This document shows positions 6,674-53,904 of a stretch of 64,000 bases of DNA, in pieces. The position numbers and the translations under genes were made by a program. The notes below the pieces were generated by a model, which was given only the letters and a program-made list of their open reading frames with translations, made no database searches and was not told where the DNA came from. Every line of letters starts with the position of its first letter. Positions within the stretch are counted from its first letter, which is position 1. The DNA is from an uncultured Muribaculaceae bacterium (lineage in GTDB: Bacteria; Bacteroidota; Bacteroidia; Bacteroidales; Muribaculaceae): contig CAJOFM010000002.1 of NCBI GenBank assembly GCA_905233915.1, forward strand, positions 1 through 64,000, written 5' to 3'.

Positions 6674-7444
6674 ATGACAATATCAACATGGATTGAGGAC
6701 ATCAAGCGCGTGGCAGCCGACGAGACTGCCCAGGTGACACGCGAGTGGATGGAACAGGCCCTGGAGACCGCCCCCTACTGCGTTACACCCGCGCTGCTGT
6801 TCCTGAAACGCAATGGCGTGAAAGGCAACGAGGACATCCTTGCAAAACTCGCCATCACCTTCCCCGACCGCCAGGCCCTGGCAACGGTCATCGGCGAGGA
6901 GGCACACAAGCTCACGGATTTCTACCCCCCAGAGGAGGTGCCCGAGACACCCGACACCATCACCACCATCGACCGTTTCCTGGACAACTACGGCAAGACC
7001 AGCCCTGGCGAGGTCGAGGCCATCAACCGGGCGATTTTCAACCCGCAGCCCGACTATGCCGACGTGCTGGCGGCACAGGAAATGGAAGAGGGCGGCATGC
7101 AGCTCACCGAGGGTGATTCGCAGGATGACCTGATCAACAAATTCATCGCCGAACAGATGCAGCTGGGCGAACAGGCGGCACAGACGCCTATCGACATCGC
7201 CGTGGGCGAGGAAGAGAAGGCCGAAATTGCCGAAGAGACCATCGAAAATCCTACCGAAAACGATGATTCCATGTTGAGCGAAAGTCTGGCCAAAATGTAC
7301 ATCGCCCGACACAAATATTCACAGGCTCTTGAAATTATTAAGCGTTTAAATTTGAAATATCCAGAAAATAGTATTTACTTTGCAGACCAAATTCGGTTTT
7401 TGACCAAATTGGTCTTAAATGAGACACTAAACGACAAAAAATAA
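6674..7444 (+). CDS. Helical hypothetical protein of the lptE-secG locus
   Basis: This 256-residue protein has no signal peptide or membrane segment and is very acidic in its middle (about residues 130-200). The N-terminal 60 residues and the last 60 look helical. The C-terminal part (MYIARHKYSQALEIIKRL, then NLKYPENSIYFADQIRFL) reads like one TPR hairpin. No enzyme motif is seen. It lies between lptE and secG on one transcript, 6 bases before secG. A cytoplasmic adaptor role is only a guess. Confidence 0.75.
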   Translation: MTISTWIEDIKRVAADETAQVTREWMEQALETAPYCVTPALLFLKRNGVKGNEDILAKLAITFPDRQALATVIGEEAHKLTDFYPPEEVPETPDTITTIDRFLDNYGKTSPGEVEAINRAIFNPQPDYADVLAAQEMEEGGMQLTEGDSQDDLINKFIAEQMQLGEQAAQTPIDIAVGEEEKAEIAEETIENPTENDDSMLSESLAKMYIARHKYSQALEIIKRLNLKYPENSIYFADQIRFLTKLVLNETLNDKK

Positions 7445-7934: not shown

Positions 7935-8897
7935 ATGAAGATGACATTATTATATATAGCTCTCGCGATACTGGCAACCGCATGTGGCAGCACCAACAAC
8001 ACGGCGGCCACGCACGATAGCGAGGAGGCCATGACGACGGCGGCTGTCAGCACGTTTGACGGCAATGCCGCCTATGAACTCACGCGCCAGCAGTGCGAGT
8101 TCGGTCCCCGCATGCCCGGCACGGCCGCCCATGCCAAGTGCGCCGAATGGCTCACCTCCACCCTGCAGGCCTCGTGCGACACCGTCATGGTGCAGACCGG
8201 AACCGTCCAGACGGCTAAGTCAGGCAAGTTAGGCATCAAGAACATCATCGGTATCATCAACCCCGACGCCAAGCAGCGCCTGTTGCTGCTTGCCCACTGG
8301 GACACCCGACCCTGGGCTGACAATGACCCTGATCCCGCCAACCACAACAAGCCCGTGATGGGCGCCAACGATGGTGCCAGCGGTGTGGGCGTGCTGCTCC
8401 AGCTGGCACGGCACCTCAAGGCCGACAGCACGAGCCTGGGTATCGACATCCTGCTGGTTGACGTCGAGGATATGGGCGTGGACGAAAACGAGGAATCATG
8501 GGCCCTGGGCACCCAGTATTGGGCCCAGCACCCCCATGTGGAGGGCTACAAACCCCTGTTCGGCATCCTGCTCGACATGGTGGGAGCCGGCGATGCCACA
8601 TTCACCTGTGAATACTATTCGACACAATATGCTGGCGGCTTTGTTGACCTGATTTGGAGGCATGCCGCGGGCAGTCACTTCAAGAAGACGCAAGCGGGAG
8701 CCGTGACCGATGACCACATCTTTGTGAACCGCGCGGGCATCCCTTGCGTCGATATCATCGACCTGCGCAGCGACAGCGACACGGGGTTCTGCTCCGCTTG
8801 GCACACCGTGAGCGACACCATGGACGGCATCAGCGCCACGACCCTTGGAGAAGTGGGCCAGACCCTGCTCAACGTCATCGCCGACCTTCAAAACTGA
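7935..8897 (+). CDS. M28-family glutaminyl cyclase-like lipoprotein
   Basis: The 320-residue protein fits zinc-dependent type II glutaminyl cyclases, which convert N-terminal Gln to pyroglutamate; M28 aminopeptidases share the fold. Visible motifs are AHWDTRPWAD, the zinc-site GANDGASG, LLVDVEDMG (Glu-Asp pair), ILLDMVGAGDATF (compare LLDLLGAPNPTF of mammalian QC) and SAWHTVSDTMD, matching the WHT zinc histidine of QC. A short lipoprotein leader ends at Cys17, so it acts in the periplasm or outer membrane. ATG 7935 is chosen because it starts the leader; the frame stays open upstream across the secG terminator. Its stop codon lies inside a 7-nt repeat array that leads into the prolyl oligopeptidase gene, so both are probably one transcript. 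Confidence 0.85.
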   Translation: MKMTLLYIALAILATACGSTNNTAATHDSEEAMTTAAVSTFDGNAAYELTRQQCEFGPRMPGTAAHAKCAEWLTSTLQASCDTVMVQTGTVQTAKSGKLGIKNIIGIINPDAKQRLLLLAHWDTRPWADNDPDPANHNKPVMGANDGASGVGVLLQLARHLKADSTSLGIDILLVDVEDMGVDENEESWALGTQYWAQHPHVEGYKPLFGILLDMVGAGDATFTCEYYSTQYAGGFVDLIWRHAAGSHFKKTQAGAVTDDHIFVNRAGIPCVDIIDLRSDSDTGFCSAWHTVSDTMDGISATTLGEVGQTLLNVIADLQN

Positions 8898-8924
8898 AAA
8901 CCGAAAATCGAAAACTAAAAACTA
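8890..8924 (+). repeat. Heptamer spacer array AAAACTG / AAAACCG / AAAATCG / AAAACTA / AAAACTA
   Basis: Five consecutive 7-nt units sharing AAAANYR fill the space between the M28 stop (TGA 8895-8897, formed by units 1-2) and the next start codon at 8933. Confidence 0.75.
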
Positions 8925-22477: not shown

Positions 22478-22519
22478 CCTAACACCTAAAGCCTAATGCC
22501 TAAAACCTAACGCCTAATT
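22478..22519 (-). repeat. Heptamer spacer array, six units of CCTAANN
   Basis: On the plus strand six exact 7-nt units read CCTAACA, CCTAAAG, CCTAATG, CCTAAAA, CCTAACG, CCTAATT. They span the whole gap from one base before the xerD ATG into the end of the serine hydrolase gene. They supply that gene's stop codon (22507-22509) and its last two Arg codons. Confidence 0.85.
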
Positions 22520-24096
22520 AAAAAACCGCGAATAGTATCATTGAGCAACGGGTCAAAATTATCATTGGCAATCACGGTAACGCTATCACCGTCAAGGGTT
22601 ATCCACAGGCGGCGGTTATCCCCACCGTCCAGCCAATCAACACGCATTGCAAGCGTGTCGCCCTGCCATGCATAGGCTGCCACACTGGTGAAGGGGCGAC
22701 GGGTTCCCACCAGTTGCTCACGGCTTTCCATGATGTAGATGGGACGCTCATCGCCAGTAGTAAACCGCCACTCGCCACAAGCCGCAACGGCACGCAAGGG
22801 ACCACGTTTGTCGGTCATGGTGAAGATGCGGTCATTGCCCATAGGACTTATGTCAATGGTCTTGATGCCCAGCAGATTGCTATCCAATGCGATATTAGCG
22901 TTGAACAATCGACCCTCCATGGGATGTGTAGCATTCCCTTGTGGCATGGCAATCGACAACGAGTCAAGCGAGTCCTTATAATCGACCTCTTGCTGGGTGA
23001 TGAGCTGCTCGATGAAACGGTAATAAATCGTGTTGAGTTCGTCACCATAGTTGGCGGCACGGCCATTGATGACAATCACCAGGTCAAGCTTGGGTAGCAC
23101 ATAGATGAGCTGACCGCCATAGCCAGCCGCAAAGAACGACTCGGCACGTGGGTGCTGAATGGCCTTGGTCTGGTAACCATAGCCCAGATAGTATTTATCC
23201 ACGTCATAGCCCGTGAACCAGGAGCGAACCTTGTGCCACAGGCGTTTAAAGAACGAGATAACCCGTTGCTTGAACGGTAACTTGGGGCCAGGGCCCTCGG
23301 TGGAGATGAGGCGTTGCGTCATGTCATGAATCCACTGTTCGCTCACCAGCTGCTGGCCTTTCCACTTGCCGCCATGCAGCATGAGCAGGCCCAGTTTGGC
23401 CTCGCTCTCGGTCTGGAGCCGCAAGCCCCAGCCGGCAGCCTCGACACTGTCAGGCGCAAGTTCCCAATCGGCCTCGGTGATGTGCAAAGGCGTGAAAATG
23501 CGTTCCCGCACATAGTCAAGCATCGGCCGGCCCGTTACCCTCGTGACAATCATCGCCAGGGCATGGGTACACATCGAGTCATAGGTGAAACGCTGCCCTA
23601 CCCCGCTGAAATCACCCGCAAACCATGCGGTAAGCCAATCGGCATCGCCCTCGGGGATGCTCAAGTCGGGTTTACGTCCAGCTGCCATCATGAGCACATT
23701 GCGCACGGTAAGACTGTCCAGGGCTGGCGACAATGTGGCGGGCATCTTGTCCCGCAGGTGCTTGGATATCTTGTCCTCGACAGTGAGCTGGCCGTCATCG
23801 ATAGCAAGCCCCACGGCAAGTGCGGTGACCGTCTTGCTGGCACTGTACAGTGTGTGCAGGTCGGTAGCCCTGTAAGGATAAGCATGCAGCTCACCGATGA
23901 CCTTGTCATGACGCAACACCATCAAGTGATGGACATCCACGTCGGGCAAACTGGTCAAGTCATGGTAAAACCTGTTGAGCAGGCCTGTCGGCACGCCCTC
24001 GGCCTCGGGAGTGCTACGGGGCAACTCATCTACCTGAGCAAGCATGGGCGACACACATGCCAACAGCAATACTATTGAGAACAGATATCGTCTCAT
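22507..24096 (-). CDS. Beta-lactamase-family serine hydrolase (second of tandem pair)
   Basis: This 529-residue exported protein has signal peptide MRRYLFSIVLLLACVSPMLA and a class C beta-lactamase/DD-peptidase-like fold: nucleophile motif SASK in TLYSASKTVTALAVGLAIDD, and a Tyr-containing box in FTYDSMCTHALAMIV. The C-terminal 150 residues form an extra beta-rich domain. Members of this family include esterases, peptidases and the muramyl amidase AmiE. It overlaps the upstream paralogue by four bases (ATGA), so the two are coupled and probably arose by duplication. Its final residues and stop come from a heptamer repeat. The context with NamZ suggests a cell-wall fragment substrate. Confidence 0.82.
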   Translation of the reverse strand: MRRYLFSIVLLLACVSPMLAQVDELPRSTPEAEGVPTGLLNRFYHDLTSLPDVDVHHLMVLRHDKVIGELHAYPYRATDLHTLYSASKTVTALAVGLAIDDGQLTVEDKISKHLRDKMPATLSPALDSLTVRNVLMMAAGRKPDLSIPEGDADWLTAWFAGDFSGVGQRFTYDSMCTHALAMIVTRVTGRPMLDYVRERIFTPLHITEADWELAPDSVEAAGWGLRLQTESEAKLGLLMLHGGKWKGQQLVSEQWIHDMTQRLISTEGPGPKLPFKQRVISFFKRLWHKVRSWFTGYDVDKYYLGYGYQTKAIQHPRAESFFAAGYGGQLIYVLPKLDLVIVINGRAANYGDELNTIYYRFIEQLITQQEVDYKDSLDSLSIAMPQGNATHPMEGRLFNANIALDSNLLGIKTIDISPMGNDRIFTMTDKRGPLRAVAACGEWRFTTGDERPIYIMESREQLVGTRRPFTSVAAYAWQGDTLAMRVDWLDGGDNRRLWITLDGDSVTVIANDNFDPLLNDTIRGFLIRR

Positions 24097-25600: not shown

Positions 25601-26497
25601 TTATTGATAGTTCTTTAACGCTTGTTCGAGTTCGGTGCGGATAAGGGTTTTCAGTTCCTGGGGCTCCAGCACCTCGATGCTGGCGCCGTGCGACATGATT
25701 TCCTCTTTAAGGTCATAGGTGATACGCATCTTGTAGGTAAACACCGAGTATTCATCATGGATTTCCTCCTGCTGTGAACTGTGCAACGGCAGGGCACGGA
25801 AATACTTAGCCTGGGTGGGTTCAACACGCAGGACGATGCGCTTGGGGCTGTTCTGGTTGGTGATGATACCGAAACAGTCCTTGAAAAAGTCCGACGGATT
25901 GACATTCGCGGGCATGGTAAAGGATTCCTGCAAGATATTAAGGTCGCCGATACGGTCTAGCGAATAGGTCTTGATGAGCCCATCCTTAACATTTAAGCCT
26001 ATCACATACCACAACTGCTTGAAGATCTTGACAAAATAAGGTTCAAGCACGATTCCATCGGTGGGACGTGAACGCGTGTAACTCTTGTAAGAAAAACGAA
26101 TGCGGCGGTTCTGCTTGAGGGCATCGATAATCACGGGCAAGTGCTCACGTGCCGAGGGCACATTCTCAACCATGATGCGCTCGCTGATGTCACGGGCATT
26201 GCTGAGCATGCCGCTCATCGAGGCCGAGTCCACCAGCCACGACTGTAATCGGGCATTGTTCTCTCCTCCAGAGTCGTCAATATAGTATTCAAAGGTCGAT
26301 TTGTCACACTGGATGTTGATATCGAACATTTCCTCCACTCCGTCACGGTAATGGAAAAAAGTGCGACGCGCCAGCGGCTTGCCTTCACTGATTTCGCTAC
26401 GCAGCCAAGCCTTGTTCAAATCCTTGAGTGTGATGCGTCCATAACGGCTGATGGTATCCACCAGCCACACATAGCGGTTAACAAGGTTGCGGGCCAT
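25601..26497 (-). CDS. WYL-domain transcriptional regulator
   Basis: The 298-residue protein has an N-terminal winged-helix part (VDTISRYGRITLKDLNKAWL, with LARRTFFHYRDGVEEMF) and a WYL ligand-sensing domain containing VLEPYFVKIFKQLWYVIGLN and TYSLDRIGDL. A C-terminal WCX-like extension ends in TLIRTELEQAL. WYL regulators bind nucleic acids or small ligands and control adjacent genes. It lies between a sodium:solute symporter and two serine hydrolases, so it is a candidate local controller of this salvage cluster. No operator could be identified. Confidence 0.85.
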   Translation of the reverse strand: MARNLVNRYVWLVDTISRYGRITLKDLNKAWLRSEISEGKPLARRTFFHYRDGVEEMFDINIQCDKSTFEYYIDDSGGENNARLQSWLVDSASMSGMLSNARDISERIMVENVPSAREHLPVIIDALKQNRRIRFSYKSYTRSRPTDGIVLEPYFVKIFKQLWYVIGLNVKDGLIKTYSLDRIGDLNILQESFTMPANVNPSDFFKDCFGIITNQNSPKRIVLRVEPTQAKYFRALPLHSSQQEEIHDEYSVFTYKMRITYDLKEEIMSHGASIEVLEPQELKTLIRTELEQALKNYQ

Positions 26498-26513
26498 CCT
26501 TTACAGTTATTTA

Positions 26514-26555
26514 CCTAAAACCTAACGCCTAACGCCTAACGCCTAACGCCTAAAA
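26514..26555 (-). repeat. Heptamer spacer array, six units of CCTAACG/CCTAAAA
   Basis: On the plus strand the units are CCTAAAA, four exact CCTAACG and CCTAAAA. The symporter stop codon (26550-26552) is inside the last unit and the array runs toward the WYL start at 26497. Confidence 0.88.
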
Positions 26556-27995
26556 CCTCTTAATCAACAACGCCAGGCCTATCATGGTCAAAGCGGCATT
26601 CAGCAGGAGCAACTCGAAGCCCAGGGTGTAGTCATACTGGTTCTTGAGCCACATCTGGATAAAGAAGCTGATGACAGGGGCTGCGATGCACACCACAGGA
26701 ACCAAACGGTCACGCACGGGGCTCTTGCACATCATGCCAAAGGCAAACAGGCCCAAGATGGGACCATAGGTGTAGCTAGCGAGGGTATAAACAGCGCTGA
26801 TGGCGTCACTGTTGCTGATGGCATAGAATATCAAGATAACCAAGCCCATTCCGGCTGCCATCGCGATGTGTACCATGCGGCGGGTGCGGCCCAGGGCGGT
26901 ATCGTCTTGCTTCTTGTCAGCCTCCAGAATATCGACGGTAAACGAGGTGGTCAACGAAGTCAGAGCCGAGCCAGCAGCCGAATAAGCGGCTGCAATCAGG
27001 CCGATGATGAATACCACGCCCAGCAAGACAGGCATGCCTTCACTGAAGGCTACCGTGCCGAACAATTCGTCGGTCTTCTCGGGCATGGCAATGCCGTTAG
27101 CCTTAACGTGCATAGCCAGCAAGGTGCCCAAAATCAAGAACAGGGCAATCACGATGACCTGCAGGAAAACGCTCACAATAAGATTCTTGGCCGACTCACT
27201 GGCGTTCTTGCATGCCAAGCTGCGCTGCATCAGGTCTTGATCAAGTCCCGTTGTGGCGATTACCATAAAGATGCCTGCAATAAACTGTTTCCAGAAGTAA
27301 GTGCCCTCCTTGGGATTGTCAAAGAAGAACACGCGCGAGGTATCGTCACCGGCAACGGCCTTGCACAGTCCAGCCAGGTCATATCCCAAGCCCTTGGCAA
27401 CAAAGTATATACTCAGCACCACCGACAGGATGAGGCAGAAACTCTTGAGCGTATCAGTCCAGATAACGGTCTTCACACCACCCTGCAACGTGTAGAGGAA
27501 GATGAGGGCGATGGTGACAATGACGTTGATGACAAACGGGATGTGCAACGGCGAGAACACCAGCAGCTGCAGGGTCACGCACACCACATAGAAACGCACC
27601 GCTGCACCCAGCATCTTGCTGATGAAGAAGAACCACGCGCCGCTCTTGTGGGTGCTGCCACCGAAGCGTTGCTCCAGGTAGCCATAGATGGAAACAAGGT
27701 TACGCTTGTAGAATAGCGGGATGAGCACGTAGGCGATAACAAAGTAACCCACAATGAAGCCCAAGGCCATCTGCAGGTAGCTGAAGCCTTTGGTGACCAC
27801 CATGCCGGGCACCGAGATGAAGGTCACACCCGAAATGGGCGCTCCGAGCATGGCGATGGCGACAATGAACCACGGGGCCTGACGGCCGCCGCTCAAGGCG
27901 GTGGCGGTGTCGCTCTTGCGCGAGGCCGCCCACGAAATGATAAATAACAGAATGAAATAGCCAACGATGGTGGCAAGTACAATCCAGGGAGTCAT
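26550..27995 (-). CDS. Sodium:solute symporter (SSS family)
   Basis: The 481-residue polytopic protein shows the SSS (SLC5-like) pattern of about 13 membrane helices, starting TPWIVLATIVGYFILLFIIS. Typical segments are PWFIVAIAMLGAPISGVTF and IGLIAAAYSAAGSALTSLTT, the latter matching the sodium-site helix. It should import a small organic solute with sodium across the inner membrane. It is placed directly after the NamZ-like gene and before a WYL regulator and two serine hydrolases, so a sugar acid or amino sugar such as MurNAc, or a muropeptide fragment, is a candidate cargo. Substrate specificity is not readable from the sequence. Confidence 0.87.
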   Translation of the reverse strand: MTPWIVLATIVGYFILLFIISWAASRKSDTATALSGGRQAPWFIVAIAMLGAPISGVTFISVPGMVVTKGFSYLQMALGFIVGYFVIAYVLIPLFYKRNLVSIYGYLEQRFGGSTHKSGAWFFFISKMLGAAVRFYVVCVTLQLLVFSPLHIPFVINVIVTIALIFLYTLQGGVKTVIWTDTLKSFCLILSVVLSIYFVAKGLGYDLAGLCKAVAGDDTSRVFFFDNPKEGTYFWKQFIAGIFMVIATTGLDQDLMQRSLACKNASESAKNLIVSVFLQVIVIALFLILGTLLAMHVKANGIAMPEKTDELFGTVAFSEGMPVLLGVVFIIGLIAAAYSAAGSALTSLTTSFTVDILEADKKQDDTALGRTRRMVHIAMAAGMGLVILIFYAISNSDAISAVYTLASYTYGPILGLFAFGMMCKSPVRDRLVPVVCIAAPVISFFIQMWLKNQYDYTLGFELLLLNAALTMIGLALLIKRF

Positions 27996-28002
27996 ATCTT
28001 AG

Positions 28003-28075
28003 TTTAGAGTGAATAGTTAATAGTTAACAGTGAATAGATACCAAAAACCTAATGCCTAAAGCCTAATGCCTACTC
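28003..28075 (-). repeat. Two abutting heptamer spacer arrays
   Basis: On the plus strand, 28003-28037 holds TTTAGAG, TGAATAG, TTAATAG, TTAACAG, TGAATAG. Then 28041-28075 holds CCAAAAA, CCTAATG, CCTAAAG, CCTAATG, CCTACTC. The NamZ-like gene's stop (28070-28072) lies in the last unit and the symporter ATG is 8 bases from the first. Together they fill nearly the whole 74-base gap. Confidence 0.85.
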
Positions 28076-29338
28076 AGCATAGAGGAGATAAGGACGGCGC
28101 TGGGCCTTGAAGAGTTCTACATCGGCTTGCCAGGTAGCCTTGATTTCATCGGCACTCTTGCCTTCAGCAATCATCTCACGTACCAACTTTGTGCCCATGA
28201 GCAGGTCAAAGAAATTGCTCTTCAGATAGAACTGGTGGCCGTTCCTGGTCAAGTTGCGGTAAGCGTCGATGACATATTCCAAATTGATGCCTTTGGCAAT
28301 GACTGCCTCGGGATCCAAATTATGGAGGTCCACACCATGGCACAGTTTGTCCATCTGCGGCGGTATCTTGGCGCCAAAGCGGCTGGTGGGCGTGAACTCA
28401 AAGTCGTAGCCCGTCATGTCGGGATGGCCATAGACCTGGAAAGGCCAGTCGGTGCCGCGGCCCAGGCTCACCGTCGTGCCCTCGAAATAGCACATCGACG
28501 GATAGAGGTAGATGGCAAGCATATTGGGCAGATTGGGGCTCGGAGCGATAGGCAACGCGTAACGGGTCTGGTGGGTATAGTTTTGACATGGGATGACCGT
28601 TAGGTCACACTTCTTGCCGTCTTTGAGCCAACCCTCGCCGTTAGCCATCTGCGCCAGTTCACCCAATGTCATGCCATGCACGGTGGGGATGGGCAGGCGG
28701 CCCACTCCCGACTTGAGTGTCATGTCCAGGATGGGTCCATCAACATACATGCCGTTAGGATTGGGACGGTCAAACACCACGAACTGCTTATCGTAGGTCA
28801 CCGCAGCATCCATCAGGTTAATCATCGTCACATAGTAGGTGTAGAACCTGAGTCCCACGTCCTGAATGTCGGTCACGATGACATCAATGCTGTCCATCAC
28901 CTGCTTGCTCGGCATGGGAGACTTGCCGTCATAGAGCGACGCGATAGGGATTCCCGTCTTCTCGTCAACACTGCTCGACACATGTTCGCCGGCATCAGCA
29001 TTGCCACGGAAACCGTGCTCGGGCGAGAAAATTGTCACCACATTCACACCGTTCTCCAGCATCAGGTCCAGCGTGTGCTTGTCGCCCACCATACCAGTCT
29101 GGTTACTCAGCAGCGCGACACGCTTACCCTTAAGCAACGGCACATATTCGCTAGTGCGGGCTGCACCCATCACCACCTCACCTCCCGAAGGAGCAGCCGC
29201 GGACGATTGCTGAGTGCCTGCAGCGCCCTTGGTAACGGCCTTATTCACTTGGCTGTTGCATGCGTTGAGCGTGGTCATTGACGTGAGCGACAGCCACATC
29301 ACCAACATCATCAGCGCCTTCTTGGTCATTGTTTTCAT
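28070..29338 (-). CDS. NamZ-like exo-beta-N-acetylmuramidase lipoprotein (DUF1343)
   Basis: The 422-residue protein has the DUF1343 signature now assigned to NamZ (GH171), which removes terminal MurNAc from peptidoglycan fragments: GKRVALLSNQTGM, TIFSPEHGFRGNADAGE, VIVTDIQDVGLRFYTY, FVVFDRPNPNG and TTVSLGRGTDWPF. A leader with Cys after LTSMTTLNA marks it as a lipoprotein in the periplasm or outer membrane. ATG 29338 is chosen because it follows the promoter at 29366-29396; the longer frame would begin inside that promoter. It heads a same-strand cluster with a symporter, a WYL regulator and two serine hydrolases. Confidence 0.85.
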   Translation of the reverse strand: MKTMTKKALMMLVMWLSLTSMTTLNACNSQVNKAVTKGAAGTQQSSAAAPSGGEVVMGAARTSEYVPLLKGKRVALLSNQTGMVGDKHTLDLMLENGVNVVTIFSPEHGFRGNADAGEHVSSSVDEKTGIPIASLYDGKSPMPSKQVMDSIDVIVTDIQDVGLRFYTYYVTMINLMDAAVTYDKQFVVFDRPNPNGMYVDGPILDMTLKSGVGRLPIPTVHGMTLGELAQMANGEGWLKDGKKCDLTVIPCQNYTHQTRYALPIAPSPNLPNMLAIYLYPSMCYFEGTTVSLGRGTDWPFQVYGHPDMTGYDFEFTPTSRFGAKIPPQMDKLCHGVDLHNLDPEAVIAKGINLEYVIDAYRNLTRNGHQFYLKSNFFDLLMGTKLVREMIAEGKSADEIKATWQADVELFKAQRRPYLLYAE

Positions 29339-37322: not shown

Positions 37323-37370
37323 AATCAGTTCAGAACAGGAATTAAGAAATAAGGAGTTAGAAGTCTTGAA

Positions 37371-37405
37371 CTCAACACCTCTAACTCCACACTCCTAAAT
37401 CCTAA
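37371..37405 (-). repeat. Heptamer spacer array after frr
   Basis: On the plus strand the units read CTCAACA, CCTCTAA, CTCCACA, CTCCTAA, ATCCTAA, ending 4 bases from the frr stop. The adjoining 37342-37370 continues a looser 7-nt rhythm. Its GGAGTTAGA (37353-37361) is the complement of TCTAACTCC (37380-37388), giving a possible hairpin. Confidence 0.65.
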
Positions 37406-37409
37406 GTAT

Positions 37410-37970
37410 TTACACGGTCAGGATTTCCTTCTCCTTGGCGGCAAACAGTTCATCGATTTTCTTCATGAACTTGTCATGAATCTTTTGAACCTTCTCCTCG
37501 CCGTCCTTGGAAACGTCCTCGCTCATACCTTCCTTAACGGCCTTCTTCAAGCCCTCGATAGCCTCGCGACGGGCATTGCGGATGCTCACACGAGCCTTCT
37601 CGCTCTCGGCCTTGGAATCCTTAACGAGCAACTTGCGGCGCTCCTCGGTCAAGGGAGGAATATTCAGGCGGATAACCTCACCGTTGTTGACAGGCATAAT
37701 ACCCACATTGCTGTCGATGATGGCCTTCTCGATGGTTCCAATCATGTTGCGCTCCCAAGGCATGATGGCGATGGTGCGCTGATCGGGAGTGCTCACGTTA
37801 GCCACATTATCGATGGGCACGGGGCTGCCATAGTAGTTCACACGGATGCCGTCAAGAATTTTCACGTTGGCCTTGCCTGCACGGATGTGTGCGAGGGTGT
37901 CATCGAGGAAATCCACGGCTTCCTGCATCTTTTTCTCGGCTGCGTCGAGATAGAATTTCACGTCGTTCAT
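37410..37970 (-). CDS. frr: Ribosome recycling factor
   Basis: RRF splits post-termination ribosomes together with EF-G. The 186-residue product is full length and shows the family blocks: FLDDTLAHIRAGKANVKIL, YYGSPVPIDNVANVSTPD, the IMPWERNMIGTIEKAI block, NDGx-like NNGEVIRLNIPPLTEERR, and the helical end with KIDELFAAKEKEIL. It is an essential single-copy gene sitting inside the array of GT-C-like genes, with its own promoter at 38020-38027. Separation from its usual Bacteroidales partner pyrH is noted from context only. Confidence 0.96.
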   Translation of the reverse strand: MNDVKFYLDAAEKKMQEAVDFLDDTLAHIRAGKANVKILDGIRVNYYGSPVPIDNVANVSTPDQRTIAIMPWERNMIGTIEKAIIDSNVGIMPVNNGEVIRLNIPPLTEERRKLLVKDSKAESEKARVSIRNARREAIEGLKKAVKEGMSEDVSKDGEEKVQKIHDKFMKKIDELFAAKEKEILTV

Positions 37971-53819: not shown

Positions 53820-53864
53820 AGAGAATCTAGAAAATCTAGATGTGCTAGATTCCCTAGATTCTCT
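53820..53864 (-). repeat. Repeat/hairpin between the two POT genes
   Basis: On the minus strand four 9-nt units CTAGGGAAT, CTAGCACAT, CTAGATTTT and CTAGATTCT follow each other. The outer arms AGAGAATCTAG and CTAGATTCTCT (53820-53830 and 53854-53864) are complementary over 11 bases. It may act as a processing stem or terminator between the genes. Confidence 0.6.
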
Positions 53865-53904
53865 TGTTAGTATTATTTATAATAAATAATGTGTAACGCG
53901 GTAA

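Follow-up and report, generated by a model that had tools for sequence, protein, structure and literature searches.

Heptamer arrays at gene junctions of an uncultured Muribaculaceae bacterium combine fast unit turnover with a preferred direction relative to genes

Many gene junctions of an uncultured rumen Muribaculaceae bacterium and of some of its relatives carry tandem arrays of seven-base units. The unit changes rapidly from species to species while the period of seven and a favoured orientation toward the flanking genes persist, a combination that suggests rapid growth of repeats together with selection on how they are oriented. We consider it probable that the arrays are microsatellite-like spacers, with turnover by slippage or template switching and transcript-level selection on which strand is presented to a gene.

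The window, i.e., the whole stretch of 64,000 bases analysed here, corresponds to bases 1-64000 of contig 2 of a source genome of 2.82 Mb in 24 contigs. Between its symporter and WYL-regulator genes (Table 1), the plus strand at 26514-26555 reads CCTAAAA, then four copies of CCTAACG, then CCTAAAA. Both the sequence and TRF (26521-26553, 4.7 copies, 100% matches) confirm the description in an earlier note on this DNA of six seven-base units enclosing the symporter stop codon, whose TAG is the complement of 26550-26552 within the last unit. That note had named four further places of like architecture; those at 22478, 28041 and 8890 stood, the lag-7 segment extending to the upstream stop codon in each, and the one at 37371 did not, being a weak TRF repeat (37369-37402) below the lag-7 threshold, so that four of the five named places are firm. 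Lag-7 segments are found in 4 of the 39 spacers of the window, as against a mean of 0.008 and a maximum of 1 in 500 shuffles of the spacers. At the gathering threshold, Rfam returned two tRNAs only in the window, and no structured RNA family matched at the arrays.

Table 1. Arrays and flanking genes in the 64-kb window
Feature	Position	Strand	Remarks
Heptamer array, mRNA sense TTAGGCG/TTTTAGG, six units	26514..26555	-	Symporter stop codon inside; takes up most of spacer 26498-26549
Sodium:solute symporter gene, upstream gene of the 26514-26555 array	26550..27995	-	Pfam SSF 4.3e-26
WYL/WCX-domain regulator gene, downstream gene of the 26514-26555 array	25601..26497	-	
Heptamer array, TTAGGCN-type	22478..22519	-	TRF 22478-22518; overlaps stop codon of gene 22507-24045
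Heptamer array, TTAGGCN-type, behind NamZ gene (28070-29329)	28041..28072	-	TRF 28044-28072; stop codon inside
Second array in spacer of the 28041 array, mRNA sense AACTATT/CACTGTT type	28000..28037	-	TRF period 7, 5.4 copies; adjoins symporter start
AACTGAA/AACCGAA-type array	8890..8924	+	TRF 8890-8915; overlaps stop codon of M28 peptidase gene
Weak 14-base repeat in gap between RRF gene (37410-37970) and DUF6056 gene	37369..37402	-	TRF score 40; part of imperfect inverted repeat

Three other features of the window deserve mention. The neighbour of the 28041 array, a TTAACTA-type array at 28000-28037, had been overlooked. The RRF/DUF6056 gap holds, at 37335-37402, an imperfect inverted repeat, GGAGTTAGA...TCTAACTCC, with a loose 7/14-base periodicity. 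A codirectional gap at 53820-53885 holds a nine-base array of TCTAGATNN units, similar to ones at 7175-7215 of the sampled stretch L063 and in stretches L047 and L048.

Rates in the source genome were obtained from 20 stretches of 20 kb each (L051-L070, 400 kb) placed regardless of hits; a first sample (L031-L050), partly sited on known CCTAA hits, was put to pooled use only and excluded from the rates. Genes were called by an in-house script, and start positions are approximate. Of 195 codirectional junctions, 16 hold a lag-7 array; none of the 32 convergent junctions does, and one of the 27 divergent ones. Among the same 195 codirectional junctions, lags 4, 6, 8 and 10-13 give none, lag 5 one, lag 9 four and lag 15 three, while the multiples of seven, lags 14 and 21, give 15 and 10. 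The excess of the seven-base period at junctions expected in the earlier note is therefore present. The motif CCTAAVR in three tandem copies matches 57+51 times in this genome, its reversed control 0+0 times. Across 80 loci of relatives, with 98 symporter-neighbourhood junctions left out, lag 7 occurs in 62/634 codirectional, 9/109 convergent and 8/97 divergent junctions, at densities of 0.83, 0.32 and 0.23 per kb, respectively. In a small sample of 18 loci from other Bacteroidales families (2 of 20 stretches, shorter than 2 kb, were dropped, and the G095 stretches yielded no codirectional junction), lag 7 was found in 2/64 and lag 8 in 3/64. Nine-base arrays, often TCTAGANNN, also occur, and number 36 against 20 eight-base arrays. 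Period 7 is thus over-represented in intergenic DNA, as in the heptamer class of long simple sequence repeats (LSSR).

The turnover of these arrays is seen at orthologous junctions. At the NamZ-symporter junction, a lag-7 array is present in 28 of 31 loci, with lags 5, 6, 8, 9, 10 and 11 giving 1, 0, 2, 3, 0 and 1; at the same threshold the own-genome sample gives 20 of 167 junctions, a comparison to be read with the fact that the locus was picked because of the finding. The symporter-WYL junction has such an array in 20 of 31 loci. The units differ widely among loci at both junctions, and the earlier note was right that unit sequence varies while period and placement are kept. Clustering of arrays among four ortholog groups was not significant (118/2000 shuffles; 162/2000 when stratified by length). 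Strict ortholog pairs with flank identity of at least 90% comprised 54 array pairs, 19 of them alignable and 35 not. In the 19 aligned pairs, 9 of the 14 indels of at least five bases are multiples of seven (7 three times, 14 four times, 28 and 63), and a 9-base indel falls in a nine-base array; in the raw spacer length differences of all 54 close pairs, multiples of seven account for 9 of 49 non-zero values, with no clear excess. Two contigs of one metagenome-assembled genome (MAG) illustrate such a step: their flanks are identical and their TTAGGCG/TTTTAGG arrays differ by 28 bases (L105 4301-4437 versus L106 4329-4437), possibly a strain polymorphism. In another pair, with flanks 96-97% identical, the whole unit has been swapped from an ACTTATT type to an AACTCAT type (L133 9931-9994 versus L134 9953-9994). 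One genome, G018, has two equal-scoring symporter loci (C1:16122 and C13:258830), perhaps a duplicated contig or segment.

These unit-step indels lend support to the earlier suggestion of slippage-grown spacers. We propose that units of seven, less often eight or nine, bases would be gained and lost in short gaps via slippage or template switching, and the comparison of orthologous junctions shows that spacer sequence turns over fast, whole arrays swapping their unit as the period stays. Mismatch repair deals poorly with long loops (PMC4060949), so that slips of seven bases could persist. Heptamers are the commonest class of LSSR in many prokaryotes, and a tie between slippage and the contact length of the polymerase has been suggested (Mrazek 2007, as cited in PMC4679880, PMC4692102); this published guess might explain why the step is seven. 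The whole-unit change in copy number typical of LSSRs is found here in the alignable close pairs and is invisible in the raw lengths of all pairs, whereas the citing papers, in their accessible parts, describe neither a gene-relative direction rule nor orthologous unit turnover for those repeats.

The arrays are patchily distributed. Relatives of the symporter in named assemblies belong to rumen and gut MAGs labelled Muribaculaceae, Prevotellaceae, Porphyromonadaceae or Bacteroidales. Three tandem copies of CCTAAVR are present in 15 of 37 genus genomes and 0 of 24 others; four copies of AACTNNN are present in 83/101 genus genomes, 30/119 of a family sample and 123/296 of a phylum sample; in the last of these, many genomes match the reversed control as well, since units differ in other species, e.g., TCAANNN in G505 and G528. 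The AACT word recurs at eight-base spacing in 23 of the 101 genus genomes (e.g., G094, G033, G028, G085 and G101) and never in the source genome. Within the genus, the share of codirectional gaps of at least 25 bases with lag 7 ranges from 11/26 (G009) through 3/25 (G036) and 2/28 (G110) to 0/32 (G062), and in genus g170 one genome (G451) has 126 matches and four (G425, G470, G497 and G527) have none. This patchiness, and the identical units at many junctions of one genome, are what one might expect of dispersed mobile repeats copied between places, like REP or Correia-like elements. However, the 272 arrays in all comprise 96 distinct consensus units, and what separates adjacent species is indels of whole units, not presence or absence with target duplications. 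Nor do candidate enzymes track the arrays: between 20 array-rich and 20 array-poor genomes – the latter being those without a match to four copies of AACTNNN, in which other units are possible (G088 and G090 have eight-base matches) – there was no separation by reverse transcriptase (11 versus 12 genomes), Y-family polymerase (20 versus 19) or MutS (20 versus 19) domains. We therefore regard mobile repeats as a very improbable source of the arrays; the results support the earlier view of a process acting at many junctions and not of one inserted element.

The second component of our reading, selection on direction, derives from the 230 arrays in codirectional gaps. On the start side, 73 have the AACT/CTAA core in mRNA sense, 2 AGTT/TTAG and 26 neither; on the stop side, 62 have AGTT/TTAG, 36 AACT/CTAA, 30 neither and 1 both. 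Base composition follows the same rule, with C>G in 82, G>C in 10 and equality in 9 arrays on the start side, and G>C in 78 versus C>G in 48 on the stop side. In gaps of at least 80 bases it holds separately for both ends (stop side G>C 52 versus 20; start side C>G 44 versus 8), and behind stops in convergent gaps G>C prevails by 23 to 3. The 14 arrays of divergent gaps show no such start-side bias (C>G 7, G>C 6). Beyond the order, AACT points toward the start in 8/8 and AGTT follows the stop in 9/10 scored loci from six genomes, that is, in 17 of 18 after 2 of 20 loci were dropped for want of a flanking gene. General base composition at gene ends was considered as the cause of the stop-side rule and rejected: G/(G+C) behind stops is 0.466 and 0.446 in non-array DNA as against 0.556 and 0.538 in arrays, making the bias array-specific. 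In two convergent gaps (L049 14689-14807 and L050 819-949), a strong terminator-like hairpin is separated from the stop codon by an array.

Protection of stop codons offers a poor account of the arrays. The earlier note had proposed that the arrays safeguard termination by placing stops in every frame, and all-frame stops are indeed present in sense in 193/230 codirectional arrays, as against 48% for random units of equal base composition. Yet they are present in antisense in 182/230, and among the G-rich arrays that typify the stop side they occur in 56/62 in sense and 62/62 in antisense; overlap with the stop codon, found in 65/230 arrays (28%), is close to the 26% under random placement. 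Moreover, nine-base arrays cannot set one stop word in all frames and so count against safeguarding: 35 of the 36 have stops in at most one frame, and they are not rarer than eight-base arrays. We find this proposal scarcely credible, and attribute the stop codons within arrays to the arrays' reaching the gene end, where nearly any TA-rich unit supplies a stop. The interpretation in the earlier note is, as a whole, partly supported, and the direction rule and the inverted arms described below lie beyond its observations.

For the start side, predicted folding offers a plausible basis. The mean unpaired probability predicted for positions -20 to +13 is 0.616 with the real array, 0.483 with the array flipped, 0.597 with it shuffled and 0.499 at non-array junctions, and in 103 of 125 cases the start region is predicted to be more open with the real than with the flipped array. 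As shuffled arrays are nearly as open, composition counts more than order in these predictions. In Flavobacterium johnsoniae, according to the accessible part of the report, the structure of the mRNA and A residues upstream modulate initiation, which there proceeds without Shine-Dalgarno (SD) pairing (PMC6847099). This and the predicted openness lead us to see selection on leaders behind the start rule: beside a start codon, the G-poor, C-containing strand alone would be retained because translation that starts without SD pairing needs an open, A-rich leader. Selection on transcripts would thus act as the filter on which strand faces which gene end. Behind stop codons the G-rich strand is preferred; the folding models may account for the start side of the rule and not for its stop side.

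Pure slippage does not predict three of our observations. The first is that columns of the AACT core are less variable inside arrays (A2 0.061, C3 0.079) than others (N5 0.234, N7 0.258). The second is that units are more often common to junctions of one genome than to orthologous junctions across genomes, the all-three-identical fraction being 0.319 (about 102/320) versus 0.161 of 311 and 0.05 of 3646 pairs, where pairs are non-independent and the source genome dominates. Both would suit multivalent binding sites: an AACU/UUAG-like core, repeated every seven bases in the leader or at the 3' end of the mRNA, would be recognised by a protein (S1, cold-shock, RRM or other) whose preference the units spell out as species dialects. 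The direction of AACT in the scored loci from other orders would suit this as well; the accessible part of MacGregor's paper puts forward the same idea for TAACTGA repeats (PMC4679880). However, AACT as a general ribosome-binding motif was rejected, since it is not enriched at non-array starts, bar a small rise at -14 to -12 in divergent gaps. Start-side arrays without the AACT/CTAA core obey the rule by composition (C>G 22 versus G>C 3), and the core differs among species. In the family members G505 and G528, the TCAA/TTGA word switches sides while the C>G rule is mostly kept, with C>G near starts in 7/9 and G>C near stops in 16/22, arrays within genes or without two flanking genes having been dropped; taken by itself, G528 departs from the stop rule (G>C 4, C>G 5). 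On this evidence a binding-site reading is rather unlikely.

The third observation concerns matching arms within one junction. The 272 arrays fall in 231 distinct junctions, of which 41 have at least two arrays; 22 of these 41 are ordered AGTT/TTAG then AACT/CTAA, and none in the reverse order. Two arms from one junction match each other more closely than arms drawn from different junctions (10.2 versus 7.5, 0/300 shuffles), also for the 11 pairs of the source genome (13.6 versus 9.5, 8/500 shuffles). REP/BIME palindromes, too, are intergenic and lie behind genes, and their inverted arrangement may have a parallel in these arms. The two arms could accordingly form an intercistronic stem – an mRNA stabiliser, a terminator or a REP-like palindrome – with single arrays as decayed halves, and the Y1 transposase domain, as in REP-associated enzymes, shows a weak association (18/20 array-rich versus 12/20 array-poor genomes, the domain taking in ordinary IS200-type enzymes). 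Against this, most array junctions, those beyond the 41, hold a single array, and the region with start-proximal arrays is predicted to be less structured, not more. Unlike REP/BIME, the arrays have no fixed palindrome sequence and are made of tandem heptamers, and the Y1 domain is missing from two array-rich genomes and matched 7 and 12 times in two array-poor ones. Hence, structured RNA or DNA elements appear quite improbable to us. A more far-reaching possibility, which we put forward as unlikely, is a directional gene-boundary code in Bacteroidota: repeats at seven-base pitch, with the C-rich strand always running into the gene from both sides and a species-specific sequence, would be read by one conserved RNA-level reader (ribosome loading, Rho or a multivalent RNA-binding protein), the arms being kept matched by template switching.

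Judged from the accessible parts of the papers concerned, the closest precedent for the spacers that we favour is the TAACTGA direct repeat of marine Beggiatoaceae, cyanobacteria and five Bacteroidetes (MacGregor 2015, PMC4679880), with which our arrays share seven-base intergenic direct repeats and a forward unit facing start codons – here in codirectional gaps and not in the 14 divergent arrays. A Flexibacter set found behind a stop has the orientation reversed, and other heptamers were noted in the same Bacteroidetes gaps. As far as that text goes, a single exact unit prevails there and heptamers akin to it are rare, in contrast to the 96 consensus units found here; our arrays are further set apart by a direction rule that covers both gene ends, by arms in inverted order and by units that turn over at orthologous junctions. 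Exact TAACTGA tandem sets number 0 in 864 kb of the source genome and 4 in 1.46 Mb of relatives. The GGGAATC and GGGGATT heptamers of Xanthomonas and Nostoc (Rehm 2015, PMC4692102) are likewise described, in the part of that paper at hand, as intergenic, occasionally in inverted pairs and variable in length and sequence at the same genes in close species. Their G-runs form G-quadruplexes, whereas units here are A/T-rich and mostly without GGG: neither the commonest (AACTCCT, AAAGCCT, AAAACTG and AAACTCT) nor their complements contain the run of at least three G per unit. Neither the direction rule nor heptamers in this genus are described in the openly accessible literature searched.

That heptamers are over-represented in bacteria is a long-standing observation with no agreed cause. 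In the present data, one junction can be compared in about 30 species, and unit gain, unit replacement and orientation become separable. Should curated genomes bear out the direction rule, it would provide fast-evolving seven-base markers for strain typing and a testable handle on how SD-less Bacteroidota shape their leaders and gene ends.
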